From the NCBI GenBank assembly GCA_023511835.1, contig JAIMAT010000006.1, forward strand, positions 1 through 64,000: a stretch of 64,000 nucleotides of DNA. The letters are read 5' to 3'. Origin of the DNA: Bacillota bacterium (GTDB lineage: Bacteria > Bacillota > Sulfobacillia > JAIMAT01). This document shows, in pieces, positions 26,964 to 34,187 of the stretch. How positions within the stretch are numbered: the first letter of the stretch is position 1; the number at the start of each line of letters is the position of its first letter. Both the position numbers and the translations under genes were made by a program. The notes under the pieces were generated by a model, which did not search any database, was not told where the DNA came from, and saw nothing but the letters and a program-made list of their open reading frames with translations.

Positions 26964-27818
26964 CTGCCGAGCGGTGGCGGCCACCGGCTGCGGCCCTGGC
27001 AGGGCTTCGAGCCGGACCGCCTGGAGACGTTCCGGGCCGAGGACGGCACGGTCCTTCTGCTCCGGCGCTGGCAGGGACGGGGGGGCCCGAGGGGCGACAT
27101 CCTCCTGCTCCACGGCGCCGGGGCGCACGGCGGGCTCTACGAGCCGCTGGCCGCCGAACTGGCGACGCGCGGCTGGTCCGTCTGGCTGCCGGACCTGCGC
27201 GGGCACGGGGCCTCGGGCGGCCGCCGCGGCGACGTGGAGCGCTTTGAGGTCTATGCGCGCGACCTGGCGCCGCTGGCCGGCAGGCTGGCGGCGCCCCGCT
27301 TCCTTTGGGGCGAGAGCATGGGCGGCCTGGTGGCGCTGGAGCTGGCGCTGGAGCAGCCCGGGGAGTGGAGCGGCCTCGTCCTCAGCGCTCCGGCGCTGGT
27401 GCTGATCCGTGCCATGAGCCGGCCGCTCCGCCTGCTGGGGCGGCTGGTCACCCGCCTCGTGCCGCGCCTGGAGGCGCCGCTGCTGGGACGCGGGGAGATG
27501 CCCGGACTGCCGGCGGGGACGCTGGGCCGGCAGTTCACCCTGCGCTGGGGCATGGAGGTGATGCGGGCGGGCGAAGAGCTGGTCGCCCGCCTGGAGCAGC
27601 TGCGCCTCCCCTCGCTCTGGCTCCTCCCGGGCGACGACCCGCTGGTCGACGAAGAGCGGGTAGCCGCGCTGGCGCGGCGGCTGCCCGGCGCCACGGTGCG
27701 CACCTACCCGGGCTACCCGCACGCCATCCTGACGGGGCCGGACCCGGTGGGCGTCGTCGCCTCGGCCAGCCAGTGGCTGGCGGAGCGGGCGGGCGCCGCC
27801 TCGCGGCCAGCCTCCTAG
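26964..27818 (+). CDS. Alpha/beta hydrolase, monoacylglycerol lipase/lysophospholipase-like
   Basis: A serine hydrolase of about 284 residues: oxyanion strand ILLLHGAGAHGGLYEPLA, LPDLRGHGASGGRRGD, nucleophile elbow WGESMGG, acid region LLPGDDPLVDEERV and catalytic His in YPGYPHAILTG. The frame is open from the uraA stop (26882) but has no ATG, GTG or TTG before 27234, which lies after the oxyanion motif. A CTG at 26964, preceded by a purine-rich GGAGGGGCGGGG stretch, would give the normal family length. Alternatively the start was lost or a base is wrong. The stop codon lies inside the left target duplication of the IS element but is intact. Confidence 0.75.
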   Translation: MPSGGGHRLRPWQGFEPDRLETFRAEDGTVLLLRRWQGRGGPRGDILLLHGAGAHGGLYEPLAAELATRGWSVWLPDLRGHGASGGRRGDVERFEVYARDLAPLAGRLAAPRFLWGESMGGLVALELALEQPGEWSGLVLSAPALVLIRAMSRPLRLLGRLVTRLVPRLEAPLLGRGEMPGLPAGTLGRQFTLRWGMEVMRAGEELVARLEQLRLPSLWLLPGDDPLVDEERVAALARRLPGATVRTYPGYPHAILTGPDPVGVVASASQWLAERAGAASRPAS

Positions 27819-27819
27819 C
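27814..27819 (+). repeat. Target site duplication, left copy
   Basis: CCTAGC immediately left of the IS inverted repeat; it includes the TAG stop of the hydrolase gene. The identical hexamer flanks the right end at 29663-29668. Confidence 0.75.
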
Positions 27820-29662
27820 CGGAAGTTCAGCCTGACCGAGGGGGGCGCAGCCCTTGTGGCGAGCGGGCTGAGGGGCCGTTGGCGGTTCGAAAGGTAGCCA
27901 GTCATTGTTAATCAGAACGTCTTGCATTCTCGCATGTGACGAGCTATCCTGTAGCCATGCGAGGCAGGGAGAGCGTACCCGTCCACCTGGAAACCGTCGT
28001 CAGCCGCAAGGGCGGTCGGACCTACACCACCCACCTCCTGCGCACCTCCTACCGCGAGGGCGGCAAGGTCAAGCACCGCACCGTCGCCAACGTCTCCGAC
28101 CTTCCGGAGGCGGCCATCGAGGCGCTCCGGCGGGCGTTGCGCGGCGAGAAGCTGGTCGCGGTGGGCGAGGCGGTCCAGATCCTGGCCTCCCGTTCCCACG
28201 GCGCAGTGCTGGCGGTGCTGGAGTTTCTCCGCAAGATCGGCCTGGAGCGGATGATCCTGAGCTACGAGACGCCCTGGCGGAAGCTGGTGGTGGCGATGAT
28301 CGTGGCGCGGGTGATCCGGCCGGGGTCGAAACTTTTCACACGCGGCTGGTGGCAGGGGACCACCCTGCCCGAGCTCCTCGACCTTCCCCACGGGGGCCGG
28401 GATACAGGCGCGCTCTACCAGGCGCTCGACGAACTGGGCGCGCACCAGGAGGCCATCGAGCGGAAGCTCGCCGAGAAGCACCTCCGCGACGGCGATCTGG
28501 TGCTGTACGATCTTTCCTCCAGCTACCTCGAGGGGCGGACCTGTCCCCTGGCCGCCTTCGGCTACAATCGGGACCTCAAGCGCGGCAAGCGGCAGTTCAA
28601 CTACGGGCTTCTGACCACCCGCGAGGGCTGCCCGGTGGCGATCGAGCTCTTTCCGGGGGACTGGTCGGACCCGGTGACGGTGGACAGCCAGATCCGGAAA
28701 CTTCGCGAGAAGTCCCACCTGCGCCGGATCGTCCTGGTCGGCGACCGGGGGATGCTCACCCAGGCGCGCATCGAGAAGGTGAGCGAAGCCGGCTACGGCT
28801 GGATCACGGCGCTCCGGGCGCCGGAGATCCAGCGGCTCTACGCCCAGGGGACGCTGCAACTCTCCCTTCTGGACGAGCGGAACATCGCCGAGATCGTCGA
28901 CCCCCAGCGGCCGGGCGAGCGGCTGGTCGTCTGCCGGAACCCGCTGGTGGCCGAGGAGCGGGCCCGCAAGCGCGAGGAGCTCCTCCAGGCGACCGAGCGC
29001 GAGCTCGAAAAGATTCGCGAGCGGGTGGAGAAGGGGCGGCTCAAGGGGGCGGACAAGATCGGCCTCGCCGTCGGCCGCGTGATCCACGCCTATAAAGTGG
29101 CCAAACACTTCATCCTGGAGATTGGCGAGCAGAGCTTCTCCTTCCGCCGGAACCTCGCCCACATCGAGAAGGAGCCGGTGCTCGACGGCCTATACGTCAT
29201 CCGCTCCAACGTTCCCGCGGAGGAGATGGACGCCTCCGAGCTCGTCCGGAGCTACAAGGACCTCCAGCACGTCGAGCGCGCCTTCCGTTCGCTCAAGACT
29301 TTCCACCTGGAGATCCGGCCGGTCTACCATCGCCTCGAGGAGCGGGTGCGCGCGCATGCCTTTCTCTGCATGCTGGCCTACTACGTCACCTGGCACATGC
29401 GCCGGGCGCTCGAGCCGTTCCTGCATCCCCAGGGGGAGTCCAGCCTGCGCGGGCTCCTCGAAGAGCTCGCAACCATCCAGCTCAACACCGCCGACATCGG
29501 CGGCACCCGGGTCGACCTTCCCACCATGCCCGACGAGCGCCAGCGACAGATCTTCGAACTCCTCGGCGTCAAGCCCCCTGTAGCCAGTGCCAGCAAATCG
29601 CCTGTGGCCTGAAATCCTTGAGCCGCCTATGCCAGAGGCCTGTCCCACCCACTGAACTTCCG
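27820..29662 (+). mobile_element. IS1634-family insertion sequence (1843 bp)
   Basis: Bounded by perfect 11-bp terminal inverted repeats CGGAAGTTCAG (27820-27830) and CTGAACTTCCG (29652-29662) and flanked by a 6-bp direct repeat CCTAGC. It contains one complete transposase gene and no passenger gene. Intact ends, an open transposase frame and an exact target duplication suggest recent insertion. Confidence 0.85.
27957..29612 (+). CDS. IS1634-family DDE transposase
   Basis: A 551-residue transposase of the IS4 superfamily, full length for IS1634. Catalytic residues: Asp in LVLYDLSSSYLEG, Asp in VLVGDRGML, and Glu in the C-terminal YKDLQHVERAFRSLK motif. The ATG at 27957 is used; a GTG at 27936 would add seven residues. 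Slightly richer in AAG/AAA and TTC codons than its neighbours, as expected for a mobile gene. Confidence 0.9.
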   Translation: MRGRESVPVHLETVVSRKGGRTYTTHLLRTSYREGGKVKHRTVANVSDLPEAAIEALRRALRGEKLVAVGEAVQILASRSHGAVLAVLEFLRKIGLERMILSYETPWRKLVVAMIVARVIRPGSKLFTRGWWQGTTLPELLDLPHGGRDTGALYQALDELGAHQEAIERKLAEKHLRDGDLVLYDLSSSYLEGRTCPLAAFGYNRDLKRGKRQFNYGLLTTREGCPVAIELFPGDWSDPVTVDSQIRKLREKSHLRRIVLVGDRGMLTQARIEKVSEAGYGWITALRAPEIQRLYAQGTLQLSLLDERNIAEIVDPQRPGERLVVCRNPLVAEERARKREELLQATERELEKIRERVEKGRLKGADKIGLAVGRVIHAYKVAKHFILEIGEQSFSFRRNLAHIEKEPVLDGLYVIRSNVPAEEMDASELVRSYKDLQHVERAFRSLKTFHLEIRPVYHRLEERVRAHAFLCMLAYYVTWHMRRALEPFLHPQGESSLRGLLEELATIQLNTADIGGTRVDLPTMPDERQRQIFELLGVKPPVASASKSPVA

Positions 29663-29668
29663 CCTAGC
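29663..29668 (+). repeat. Target site duplication, right copy
   Basis: CCTAGC directly right of the IS; on the minus strand it supplies the TAG stop of spoVR (29666-29664). Confidence 0.75.
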
Positions 29669-31058
29669 CGCTCCGACCGCGGCGGCGCGGCTCCTCCTGG
29701 CCCTCCCAGACCAGCTCCAGCTCCCGCCCCTCGGAGTCGGCGGTGACCAGGCGGACGGGACCCCGCCAGAGTTCGCCGATGTACTCCAGAGTCTTCTTGG
29801 CGTACTCCAGGTCGAGGCCGGAGACGTGGCGGTCCAGCTGCTCGAGGTAGAGCTGGCCGTGGCGGACCTCGCTGACGGCCACCAGCGGCACGCCGTAGTT
29901 GTAGCGCGGGCGGCAGAGGAACTCGCGCACCTGGTCGATGTCGCGGCTCTTCACCTCCAGCTCCGGCTCCCGGCCCGAGGGGGCGAAGCGCGAGCGCGGG
30001 CCGTAGGTGAAGAGCTCCATTTCGTCGGCCAGCTCGGGGGTGAGGAAGTTCTGGATCAGCGAGACGTCGTCCTCCTCGCGGCGCAGCTGCCAGAGCCGCT
30101 CCGGCCCCGACTGCTCCTCCACGTCGCGGAGGATGCGGTAGCCCAGGTAGTAGGGATTGATCTGCAGGCGGGAGCCGGGCTGGACCACGGCGGCGTGCAG
30201 GCGGGCGTACTCGAGCGTCTCCTCGGGCGTCAGCCAGCCGGCCTCCCCGAGGATGCGCGCGTGCCAGTAGGTCGCCCAGCCTTCGTTCAGGATCTTGGTG
30301 GCGAACTGGGGGTAGAAGTAGTAGGACTCCTCGCGCTGGATCTCCAGGATGTCGCGCTCCCAGTCGGTGAGCGGCGCGTAGTTGGCGAGGAACCAGAGCA
30401 GGTCCCGCTCGGGGTGGGGAGGAAGCGGCGGTGGCGCCGTCTCCCGCTCCGGCGGGGCTTCCTCCTCCGGAAAGAGCTCGGCCAGGCGCTCCTCGTCCGG
30501 GTCGCGCGGCGGACGCGACGCGGCCGGGCGCCGCCCGCGCTCCTCCTCGTAGCGCCGCCGGTGGACGCCGCGGGGGAAGTCGATGTGCTGCTCCAGCGCC
30601 ATGGCGATGTCCATCACGTGCTCCACCCGCTCCTCGCCCACCTCCTCCCGGTAGCGGTCGATGCGCTGGGCGTGGGCGGCCGCCTCGGCCACCATGTGCC
30701 GGTTGGTCTCCTGGAAGAGCGCGTTGTTCTTGAAGAAGTCGGCGTGGGCGGCCACGTGGGCCACCACCAGCAGGTTCTCCACCGGCCGGTTGGTCTCCAG
30801 AAGGAAGGCGTGCGCGGGATCGTTGTTGAGCACGATCTCGTAGATCCGCGAGAGGCCCATGCGGCCGAAGAGCCGGTTGCGGTTGTACACCTGGCCGTAG
30901 GACCAGTGCTGGGCGCGCGTGGGCAGGCCGTAGGCGGCCAGCTCGGCCATGATCTCCTCGGGCACCACCTCGAAGCGCAGCTCGAAGAAGTCGAGGCCCA
31001 GCGAGCGGGCCTGGTCCAGCACTTCCTGGAAACGCGGCGGAAGCGGTTCCAGCGGCAT
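29664..31058 (-). CDS. spoVR: SpoVR family protein
   Basis: A 464-residue SpoVR homologue, a cytoplasmic protein needed for normal spore cortex in Bacillus; its biochemical role is unsettled. Conserved regions: HWSYGQVYNRNRLFG, IVLNNDPAHAFLLETN, VAHVAAHADFFKNNALF, MDIAMALEQHIDFP, the FLANYAPLTDWERDIL block, and NEGWATYWHARIL. Third gene of the prkA-yhbH-spoVR unit. The ATG at 31058 is preferred because GGGAGGGG lies 9 nt upstream; a GTG at 31067 overlaps the yhbH stop. Confidence 0.95.
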   Translation of the reverse strand: MPLEPLPPRFQEVLDQARSLGLDFFELRFEVVPEEIMAELAAYGLPTRAQHWSYGQVYNRNRLFGRMGLSRIYEIVLNNDPAHAFLLETNRPVENLLVVAHVAAHADFFKNNALFQETNRHMVAEAAAHAQRIDRYREEVGEERVEHVMDIAMALEQHIDFPRGVHRRRYEEERGRRPAASRPPRDPDEERLAELFPEEEAPPERETAPPPLPPHPERDLLWFLANYAPLTDWERDILEIQREESYYFYPQFATKILNEGWATYWHARILGEAGWLTPEETLEYARLHAAVVQPGSRLQINPYYLGYRILRDVEEQSGPERLWQLRREEDDVSLIQNFLTPELADEMELFTYGPRSRFAPSGREPELEVKSRDIDQVREFLCRPRYNYGVPLVAVSEVRHGQLYLEQLDRHVSGLDLEYAKKTLEYIGELWRGPVRLVTADSEGRELELVWEGQEEPRRRGRSG

Positions 31059-31063
31059 CGCGC

Positions 31064-32254
31064 TCACCCCTCCCGGTCGGCCAGCAGAAAGGCGCGCAGC
31101 GCCCCGTAGACGTCCTGGCGGCGGTGGACCGCCACCGCCACGAAGCGGGGGTCGCCCAGCCGGGCCAGGGCCCGGCCGAAGAGGCTCTTGGGCCGCTCCA
31201 GGCCGTGCGGCGGCTCCGCGCGCGACCCCCGCTCGCCCTCCTCGCGGCCGTAGCCGTAAAAGGAGGGGCCGGCGGCCTCCACGATCTCGCCGTAGCCCAC
31301 CATGCGGCTCTCCGCCAGCAGCTCGCGCACCGCCTCCACCGCCGCCGCGTTGTCCTCGGGGAAGTTGTCGCCGTCCGAGAAGTGGAAGACGTAGTTGTTC
31401 CACTCGACGGCCGGGTGGTGGCGGCGGATGTGCTCCAGGGCGGCCCGGTAGGCGGTGGAGCAGAGGGTGCCGCCGGCCGAGCCGATGGCGAAGAACGTCC
31501 GCTCGTCGACGACCCGTGCCTCGGCGTCGTGGGCGATGAAGACGATCTCCACCCGGTCGTAGCGGCTGCGCAGGAACTGGACCATCCAGAAGAAGAAGGC
31601 CTTGGCCACGTACTTCTTGTCCAGGGTCATGCTGGCCGAGCGGTCCAGCAGCAGGTAGGCCGCCGCCTGGAAGCGCGGGCGGGGCTCCTCGCGCCAGCTG
31701 CGGTAGCGCAGGTCCTCCTCCACGAAGTCGCCCGGGCGCGGCTCGCCGCGCGCCGCCCTGCGTTTGACGTTCTCGTGCAGCGTACGCCGCTTGTCCACGT
31801 TGGCCAGCGAGCCGACGCGGCGGACCTCGTCGAAGCGGAGCTCGGGCGAGCGGCTGACGCGCCCCCGGGGCTCCAGCCAGGGCAGCGCCATGTCCTCCAG
31901 CATCAGTCGGGCCAGCTCCTCCACCGTCATCTCCGTCTCGAAGGTCAGCTCGCCCGGCGCGTCGCCGGCCTCGCCCGGCCCGCCCCCGCCCTCGCGCCCT
32001 CCCAGGCGCTCGCCCGGCTGGCCCTCCCCCTGGCCGACGCCCTGGTGGGACTGGGGGAAGCCGTAGCGGAAGCGGTAGCGGTCCAGGTAGCGAACCGGCA
32101 CCCGCACCACGCGCTGGCCGTCGGAGGAGATGATGGCCTCCTCGGTCACCAGGTGGCGCAGGTTCTTGCGGATCGCCTCGCGCACCCGCTGGTCGTGCCG
32201 CCGCGCGTCGCGGATGCCGCGGCGGCGAAGTTCCCAAGGAAGCTCGGCCGTCAT
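31064..32254 (-). CDS. yhbH: DUF444 (YhbH/YeaH) family protein with von Willebrand A-type domain
   Basis: A 396-residue protein: a basic N-terminal region (RDARRHDQRVREAIRKNL), a Gly-rich low-complexity linker near residue 85-105, and a vWA-like domain with the metal-ion motif LLDRSASM and later FSDGDNFPEDN. Conserved partner of PrkA and SpoVR in spore-formers and of YeaG/YcgB in enterobacteria. The ATG at 32254 follows GGGGAGGGG. Confidence 0.93.
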   Translation of the reverse strand: MTAELPWELRRRGIRDARRHDQRVREAIRKNLRHLVTEEAIISSDGQRVVRVPVRYLDRYRFRYGFPQSHQGVGQGEGQPGERLGGREGGGGPGEAGDAPGELTFETEMTVEELARLMLEDMALPWLEPRGRVSRSPELRFDEVRRVGSLANVDKRRTLHENVKRRAARGEPRPGDFVEEDLRYRSWREEPRPRFQAAAYLLLDRSASMTLDKKYVAKAFFFWMVQFLRSRYDRVEIVFIAHDAEARVVDERTFFAIGSAGGTLCSTAYRAALEHIRRHHPAVEWNNYVFHFSDGDNFPEDNAAAVEAVRELLAESRMVGYGEIVEAAGPSFYGYGREEGERGSRAEPPHGLERPKSLFGRALARLGDPRFVAVAVHRRQDVYGALRAFLLADREG

Positions 32255-32279
32255 GGCCACCCCTCCCCGCGAAACCGGC

Positions 32280-34187
32280 TCACTTCTCGCGCGAGAGCAG
32301 CGAGGAGACGTACTTCAGCAGCTCGTTGGCGCAGGTGGCGCAGTACCCCTCGCGCTGGATGAGCGTCTGGACCACCTGGTTGATGCGCTTCAGCTCCTCC
32401 TCGTCCGGGTTGCGCGAGGTGACGGTCAAGCGGATGGTGTCCCGCCGCTCCTCGAAAAGCTGGCGCTCCAGGGCGGTGCGCAGCTTCTCGTGGGTGGTGT
32501 AGTCGAAGCGCTCGCCGCGGCGGTCGGCGATGGCCACCTTGCGCATGATCTCGTTGCGGAAGGCGTCCTTGCCGCTCTCCGAAACCGCCACCTTCTCCTC
32601 GATAGAGCGCATCAGGCGCTCGTCCGGCTCGCGCTCCTCGCCGGTCAGGGGATCGGTGATGCGGGTGTGTTCGAGGTAGGCTTCCACGTTGTCCAGGTAG
32701 TTCTCCAGGAGCGTCCGGATCTCGTCCTCGAAGGAGACGAAGAAAGCTTTCTGCACGTCGGTGCGCGCGATCTCGTCGTACTCGCGGCGGGCGTCGGCGA
32801 TCAGCTGCTCGTACTCCTCGCGCTTCTCGCGGCTCAGCTCCGCCAGCTCCGCCACGCCTTCCTTCAGCGCCAGCAGGACGTCGATGGGGTTGACGCAGGT
32901 GGTGCCGGGGCGGGTGAAGGCGGCGGCGATCCGGTTCATCACGAAGCGAGGCGAGATCCCGTGCATCCCCTCGCCCTCGCTCTCGGCGCGGATCTTCCGC
33001 ACGTCGCGCGCGCTGTAACCCTCCACCTCGTCGCCGTTGTAGAGGTGCATCTTCTTGACGCGGCTCAGCCCCGGCCGGGTCGAATCCTCCAGGCGCGTCA
33101 TGACCGCGAACATGGAGGCGACCTCCAGCGTGTGCGGGGCGATGTGGACGCCGCGCAGGTTGGACTGGGCGAGCAGCTTCCTGTAGATGCGCACCTCCTC
33201 GGAGAGCTTCAGGTTGTACGGAAAGCGGACCGCGATCATCCGGTCGCGCAGCGCCTGAGAGGTCTCATCGTTGAGGAACTGCTGGTACTCCACCTCGTTG
33301 GTGTGCGCGATGACACACTCGTCGGCGTAGATGAGCGGGAAGCGTCCCGTCTTGATGTTCCGCTCCTGCGCCAGGGTGAGGAGCACGTACAGGAAGCGCG
33401 GGTCGGCCTTCAGCATCTCGATGAACTCCATCAGCCCGCGGTTGGCGATGTTCAGCTCGCCGTCGAAGCGGTAGGCGCGCGGGTCCGACTCGGCGCCGTA
33501 CTCGCCGATGCGGGCCAGGTCCAGCGAGCCCACCAGCTCCGAGATGTCCTGGCTCTTGGGGTCGGAGGGGACGAAGGTGCCGATGCCGACGCGATCTTTT
33601 TCCGACAGGAAGATCCGCCGCACCGGCACGCGGTAGATATCGCCCTGGTAGGTCTCCCTCAGCTCCAGCGCGCAGCGCGGGCAGAGCTCGCCCTCGATGT
33701 CGATGCCGTACCGCTCCCGGAAGCTGGCGCGCAGACCGTGCGGGACGAGGTGGAGCGGGTCCTCGTGCTGGGGGCAGTCGGCGATGGCGTAGAGCGCCCC
33801 CTGCTCGGTACGCGAGTACTCTTCCAGCCCGCGCTTGAGCAGGATGACCAGCTCGGATTTGCCGCTGGAGGGGGGGCCGTAGAGGAGGAGGATGCGCCGC
33901 CGGACGTCCGAGCCCATGGCGGCCGCCTTGAAGTATTCGACCACCTGGGCCAGCGCCTCGTCCACCCCGAAGAGGTCGTCGGCGAAGAAGCGGTAGCGCT
34001 CGATGCCGGCCTGCTCGTCGACCTCCACGCCCCGCTCGCGGATCATGTCCCAGAGCCGCTCGTGCGCGCGCCGGGCCAGGCGCGGATCGTCGACGACCAT
34101 CTGCAGATACTCGCGGAACGTGCCGCTCCAGGCTTGCTCGGCATGGGATCGGCGGTAGGCGTCGATCAGATCGAAGAGATCGTCCAT
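32280..34187 (-). CDS. prkA: PrkA serine protein kinase / AAA+ protein
   Basis: A 635-residue PrkA. The N-terminal AAA+ domain has Walker A GPPSSGKSE near residue 105, Walker B-like LMEFIEML, and an embedded CPQHEDPLHL. The C-terminal part is the PrkA kinase-like domain. Described in Bacillus as an inner-spore-coat-associated kinase or ATP-dependent protease affecting sporulation. First gene of the operon; GGGAGGTG lies 7 nt before the ATG. Length and all blocks match the family. Confidence 0.95.
   Translation of the reverse strand: MDDLFDLIDAYRRSHAEQAWSGTFREYLQMVVDDPRLARRAHERLWDMIRERGVEVDEQAGIERYRFFADDLFGVDEALAQVVEYFKAAAMGSDVRRRILLLYGPPSSGKSELVILLKRGLEEYSRTEQGALYAIADCPQHEDPLHLVPHGLRASFRERYGIDIEGELCPRCALELRETYQGDIYRVPVRRIFLSEKDRVGIGTFVPSDPKSQDISELVGSLDLARIGEYGAESDPRAYRFDGELNIANRGLMEFIEMLKADPRFLYVLLTLAQERNIKTGRFPLIYADECVIAHTNEVEYQQFLNDETSQALRDRMIAVRFPYNLKLSEEVRIYRKLLAQSNLRGVHIAPHTLEVASMFAVMTRLEDSTRPGLSRVKKMHLYNGDEVEGYSARDVRKIRAESEGEGMHGISPRFVMNRIAAAFTRPGTTCVNPIDVLLALKEGVAELAELSREKREEYEQLIADARREYDEIARTDVQKAFFVSFEDEIRTLLENYLDNVEAYLEHTRITDPLTGEEREPDERLMRSIEEKVAVSESGKDAFRNEIMRKVAIADRRGERFDYTTHEKLRTALERQLFEERRDTIRLTVTSRNPDEEELKRINQVVQTLIQREGYCATCANELLKYVSSLLSREK

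Follow-up and report, generated by a model that had tools for sequence, protein, structure and literature searches.

An insertion sequence (IS) of the IS1634 family, lying between an alpha/beta hydrolase gene and spoVR in a 64,000-nucleotide stretch of DNA from a Bacillota bacterium (the window; positions 1 to 64,000 of contig JAIMAT010000006.1, assembly GCA_023511835.1), very probably inserted into a CTAG in which these two convergent genes shared their stop codons, and it spared both. The insertion would have been made with a 6-bp stagger centred on YTAR, that is CTAG, TTAG, CTAA or TTAA, tetramers that hold a TAR (TAA or TAG) stop triplet on each strand; the rarity of YTAR in this genome is what would make so unusual a landing site a likely one.

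The element is bounded by two copies of CCTAGC and ends in perfect 11-bp inverted repeats (Table 1). With the element present, the two genes each own a CTAG: the hydrolase ends ...ASRPAS-TAG within the left target copy, and SpoVR ends ...RRGRSG-TAG within the right one. When the element and one CCTAGC were removed by script, both stops fell on a single CTAG, giving a gene overlap of 4 bp. This overlap, and the separate stop that the 6-bp duplication provided for each gene with the C-termini intact, had been described in a first-pass annotation made from the sequence; its observation was right in every detail, and its interpretation as target selection is supported by the comparisons below.

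The empty site was found within the genus. The element is absent from both other genomes of the genus, G001 and G002, in which the two genes also lie tail to tail and the hydrolase homologues have matching ends. G002 has a single CCTAGC, and the hydrolase and spoVR TAG codons overlap on its CTAG, exactly as after the scripted removal. In G001 each gene ends on a CTAG of its own, the two lying 13 bp apart, and the stops do not overlap; no sign of the element is seen there. Thus, of the two relatives, one has the expected junction and the other a different one: the shared stop varies within the genus, yet the deduced junction exists, and either arrangement may be the ancestral one. At the G001 junction (L050, G001:C10:33200-37700), the stops are parted by two CCTAGG copies in direct orientation, 8 bp from each other. 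An excision footprint was considered for this arrangement and dropped; the spacer holds no trace of element ends.

Table 1. Features of the insertion locus (positions in the window)
Feature	Position	Strand	Description	Evidence
Alpha/beta hydrolase gene (Hydrolase_4)	26988..27818	+	start codon provisional	Pfam PF12146, 3e-46
Left target duplication CCTAGC	27814-27819		holds the hydrolase stop TAG	sequence
IS element	27820-29662		1843 bp, between the two CCTAGC copies	sequence
Left terminal inverted repeat CGGAAGTTCAG	27820..27830	+	matches IS1634 ends C-----YT (family passages of PMC2266710)	sequence
IS1634-family DDE transposase gene	27936..29612	+	intact	NF033559, PF01609
Right terminal inverted repeat, complement of CGGAAGTTCAG	29652..29662	-		sequence
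Right target duplication CCTAGC	29663-29668		holds the spoVR stop (CTA on the + strand)	sequence
spoVR gene	29664..31067	-	homologues in G001 and G002	PF04293, 1.3e-103; gene call

Since the window's genome holds only one copy of the element (no further copy was found in it, and a second DNA match, spanning 37 bp of C93, does not represent a copy), the target rule was examined in relatives, drawn from the class and phylum, from one genome-collection record and from plasmids. The genome-collection scan yielded three relatives; a scan of viral contigs gave no relatives, and a DNA-level plasmid search gave none. Ends were called blind to the flanks, from suitably spaced occurrences of the motif C.GAA[GC]TT and of its complement, and 25 elements with mutually unrelated flanks qualified, the window's included. 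In 24 of the 25, YTAR stands on both sides exactly 1 bp off the element, which makes 49 of 50 ends; at any one of the 48 remaining distances (2 to 49 bp) it occurs at 0 to 2 of the 50 ends, and across these flanks it has a background of 103 in 51,348 positions (0.2% per position). Identical 6-bp duplications flank 19 of the 25 elements. CTAG is the commonest form, and the bases outside YTAR vary freely, with no clear preference. The first-pass annotation had suggested target selection at CTAG: the selection is real, but the target is YTAR rather than CTAG alone. The comparison of flanking hexamers that it had proposed, which finds one copy only in this genome, gives the common core YTAR among the copies elsewhere.

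A good natural sample of landings by a close relative of the element is provided by G512. This genome (for example at L128 and L132) holds at least seven intact copies and several split or decayed ones, some of which are interrupted by other insertions. Seven copies have seven different flanks, with the duplications TCTAGA, CTTAGC, ACTAGA, CTTAGG, ACTAGC, GTTAGC and TCTAGT.

Outside the 25 elements are partial, contig-edge or split copies and entries without a clear end pair. Single ends with YTAR occur among them on the left of L007 (TCTAAC), L008 (ATTAGT) and L098 (GCTAAG) and on the right of L009 (ACTAAA), L048 (ATTAGT), L063 (TTTAAG), L085 (CCTAGC) and L091 (GCTAGT), and the split elements L083/L090 and L097/L100 have TCTAGG and CTTAGA, respectively, at both ends. 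A laxer rule, again blind to the flanks, recovered L070 (TTTAGC and TCTAAC, both YTAR); applied to L059, L067, L054, L007 and L063, it gave no convincing end pair. YTAR is lacking at the right of L010 (TATGGC), at end-like motifs in L056 and at four end-like motifs in L067. L054 has a single end-like motif, which lies within its transposase match, and no ends were found in L011, L016, L017, L023, L049, L059/L060, L099 or L084/L088. Two kinds of candidate were left out. One is a pair of end-like motifs in L075 (CCGGCC and CTCGAT, no YTAR), where a minus-strand copy is also read as L098 and the pair misfits the transposase ends; the other is a second, longer end pair in L001, L053 and L078, taken as a chance match.

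How far the rule reaches was judged from a tree of 33 transposases, in which the 17 YTAR entries lie together on the same side of a branch supported at 100/99. Transposases of this clade share 44-62% identity with the window's protein, and L067, whose ends were not found, shares 42%. Four distant IS1634 relatives at 28-30% identity (L018, L020, L029 and L030) have similar ends and 5-bp duplications, none of which is YTAR (TCAAA, TCAGG, CGGCA and CCAGG); at n=4, this second branch is represented by few elements. By sequence comparison, N-YTAR-N inside a 6-bp duplication is the target of one IS1634 clade, which is widespread in Bacillota-type genomes, Actinomycetota and Pseudomonadota.

The frequency of potential sites was counted in 462 kb of the window's genome, made up of 20 stretches of 20 kb (G000, L142-L161) and the window without the element. 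At a GC content of 74.6%, YTAR occurs 148 times in this sample: 34 sites are single-gene stops and 9 are double stops (43 stops); with genes taken from a simple gene caller, another 50 are in intergenic DNA and 55 within genes. CTAG was seen 98 times versus 483 expected from trinucleotides, an approximately five-fold depletion, and 32 of the 98 are stops. TTAA was not depleted in the same sample (13 seen versus 5.3 expected). Among convergent neighbours, 9 of 71 pairs overlap by exactly 4 bp. Given the YTAR rule, an insertion would strike a double stop in about 6% of cases, or 10% with genes off limits; without a target rule there are about 9 such sites in 462,000 positions, or about 2 in 100,000. 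Because YTAR is rare here and many of its sites are gene stops, a harmless landing requires no recognition of stop codons. Gene stops make up 29% of YTAR sites at 74.6% GC, 16% at 69.8%, 8-9% at 63-71% and 2-5% at 56-59%; where the GC content of the host is highest, an element that seeks YTAR effectively seeks gene ends.

Fifteen insertions of relatives could be placed in longer contexts, making 16 with the window's. Judged by the gene caller, four of the 15 are on a gene stop, namely those of rsgA and a truncated IS3-type transposase gene (both in G512), a transglycosylase-domain gene (G118) and an amidohydrolase gene (G029); the others comprise ten intergenic insertions and one within a weakly called gene. 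Stop insertions thus number 5 of 16, where the sites of each genome lead one to expect 1.55 (all YTAR sites) or 2.25 (non-genic ones); leaving out the window, which had been selected for this feature, they number 4 of 15. The background samples are small for some genomes (37-44 kb for three), and two of the four stops belong to short or weak genes; the excess is suggestive and points to selection at most, without being decisive.

In the mechanism we propose, the transposase would make 6-bp staggered cuts in its target, with the palindrome YTAR (CTAG in this case) at their centre, and the element would have jumped into the CTAG where hydrolase and spoVR shared their stops. Repair of the gaps would then duplicate N-YTAR-N and, because both strands of YTAR contain a stop triplet, restore a stop on both sides, such that each convergent gene receives a complete stop of its own and both proteins stay unchanged. 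The double stop would be a likely site, given that YTAR is rare at 74.6% GC and about three in ten of its sites are gene stops, and selection against intragenic insertions may raise the odds of stop sites further. Several points weigh against this account. The flanking hexamers are unequal in 6 of the 25 elements. Five of these (L004, L005, L047, L068 and L073) still have YTAR at both ends and differ in the outer bases; the sixth, L069, has YTAR on one side only, its left end being TCTCAA, the single exception among the 50. Recombination between copies or mutation may be responsible. In addition, the partial copy L055 has a non-YTAR hexamer (right, TCGAGA) beside an end-like motif, some clade members lack clear ends (L059/L060, L067 and L054), and the gene caller was a simple, home-made one. 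With a single copy in the genome, the preference of this exact element would follow from relatives at 44-62% identity, and we infer from sequence both the cutting geometry and the jump of this copy by that reaction.

Other explanations were weighed against the same data. The element might land anywhere, with only harmless insertions persisting, as the first-pass annotation had offered as its second option. Consistent with such survival, 14 of the 15 relative insertions in long contexts avoid confident genes, the remaining one falls in the weak gene call, and stops are hit in 5 of 16 cases versus the 1.55 expected from all YTAR sites. However, survival leaves YTAR at 49 of 50 ends unexplained, and many intergenic insertions far from stops are also in YTAR. 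Moreover, with 9 double stops in a non-coding total of about 57 kb, random landing in non-genic DNA would hit one of them in about 1 of 6,000 cases. The flanks of the relatives refute survival as the sole cause, and we give that version practically no credence; as a contributor it may have a part (5 of 16 at stops versus 1.6 to 2.3 expected, not decisive). Nor is it at all probable that the two CTAGs are older than the insertion and that the element duplicated nothing. Such a state is seen in G001, which has two CTAGs, 13 bp apart, in the interval between these genes, but the hexamers in the window are identical and directly adjoin the element, only one CCTAGC is present in G002, and 6-bp duplications are found in 19 of the 25 elements.

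The same excess (5 of 16 versus 1.55 or 2.25 expected, and 4 of 15 without the window) would also fit an element that recognizes stops or gene ends besides YTAR, through terminator structures, transcription ends or sharp bends. The excess is small, however, and 10 of the 16 insertions are intergenic ones whose target holds no stop; there is no clear base preference outside YTAR, and no terminator-like signal was found at the hydrolase/spoVR junction. We regard such recognition as unlikely and retain the YTAR-centred insertion. Having proposed the latter, we would note a further possibility, doubtful at present, that in GC-rich hosts the YTAR target serves the clade as a safe harbour at gene ends and that the clade has been kept or has spread because of it. 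If this were true, landings on stops would exceed what YTAR frequency alone gives.

In other respects the element is an ordinary member of the IS1634 family. The transposase has 558 residues from the GTG at 27936 (an ATG at 27957 is an alternative start) and scores 329.5 bits against the NCBI IS1634 model NF033559 (cut-off 100), its sole NCBIfam match. Its DDE triad is D192, D270 and E447, with spacers of 77 and 176 residues, the second being long, and its YREK motif reads YKDLQHVERAFRSLK, with L replacing R (the Y-L-E-K form). The passages on IS1634 in De Palmenaer et al. 2008 (PMC2266710) give ends C-----YT, a length of 1500-2000 bp, direct repeats of 5-6 bp, a long second DDE spacer and a YREK motif that lacks the arginine in most members; the present element begins CGGAAGTT..., measures 1843 bp and has the 6-bp repeat CCTAGC. 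An AT-rich duplicated tract, given in those passages as an observation and not as a defining trait, is not seen here: CCTAGC is 4/6 G+C, and only the YTAR core is constant. The IS5 family, considered owing to the YTAR target, was ruled out, the only NCBIfam match being IS1634, as was IS701, another IS4 offshoot, which has 4-bp direct repeats according to the same passages versus 6 bp here.

IS711 belongs to the IS5 family; IS630, another family, prefers CTAG and duplicates TA. Compared with the passages on IS1634 in PMC2266710, the present clade shares the one-ORF (open reading frame) DDE transposase, the 1.5-2 kb length, the ends C-----YT, the 6-bp duplication and the motif Y-(2)-x-(3)-E-(6)-K, which lacks the arginine. 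Unlike the five to six bp AT-rich tracts and poorly conserved ends described there, it has a fixed N-YTAR-N, with outer bases GC-rich or not, and conserved ends C.GAA[GC]TT. A fresh 6-bp duplication by an IS1634 element in Geobacillus is described in a passage of PMC8024623. IS5 of E. coli, in the relevant part of PMC11677980, resembles the clade in its CTAA/CTAG-type target and its reported bias to intergenic and AT-rich regions, and differs in family and in a 4-bp duplication of the core alone. Likewise, IS711 of Brucella has the consensus target YTAR in the corresponding part of PMC2266754, but belongs to another family and duplicates the central TA alone. The same four tetramers are named as 4-bp convergent (tail-to-tail) gene overlaps in PMC2174442; the set is identical to YTAR, and transposons are absent from the passages concerned. 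In a text search that also covered stop codons as IS targets, with subscription papers and ISfinder outside its scope, no earlier statement of the YTAR rule was found for IS1634. YTAR-type targets are thus known from IS5 and IS711, and the rule described here extends to an IS1634 clade.

What is worth keeping is the target rule of this clade and how it makes stop codons safe landing sites. The rule is clean and testable, and shows how a simple palindromic target turns into gene-end targeting as genomes grow GC-rich. It also offers a simple account of how certain insertion sequences come to lie between convergent genes without doing harm, and with it annotators can place such elements and recognize their empty sites.

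Beyond the insertion, spoVR, a DUF444 gene and prkA follow one another in a row on the minus strand of the window (29664-34187); the latter two are the usual neighbours of spoVR.
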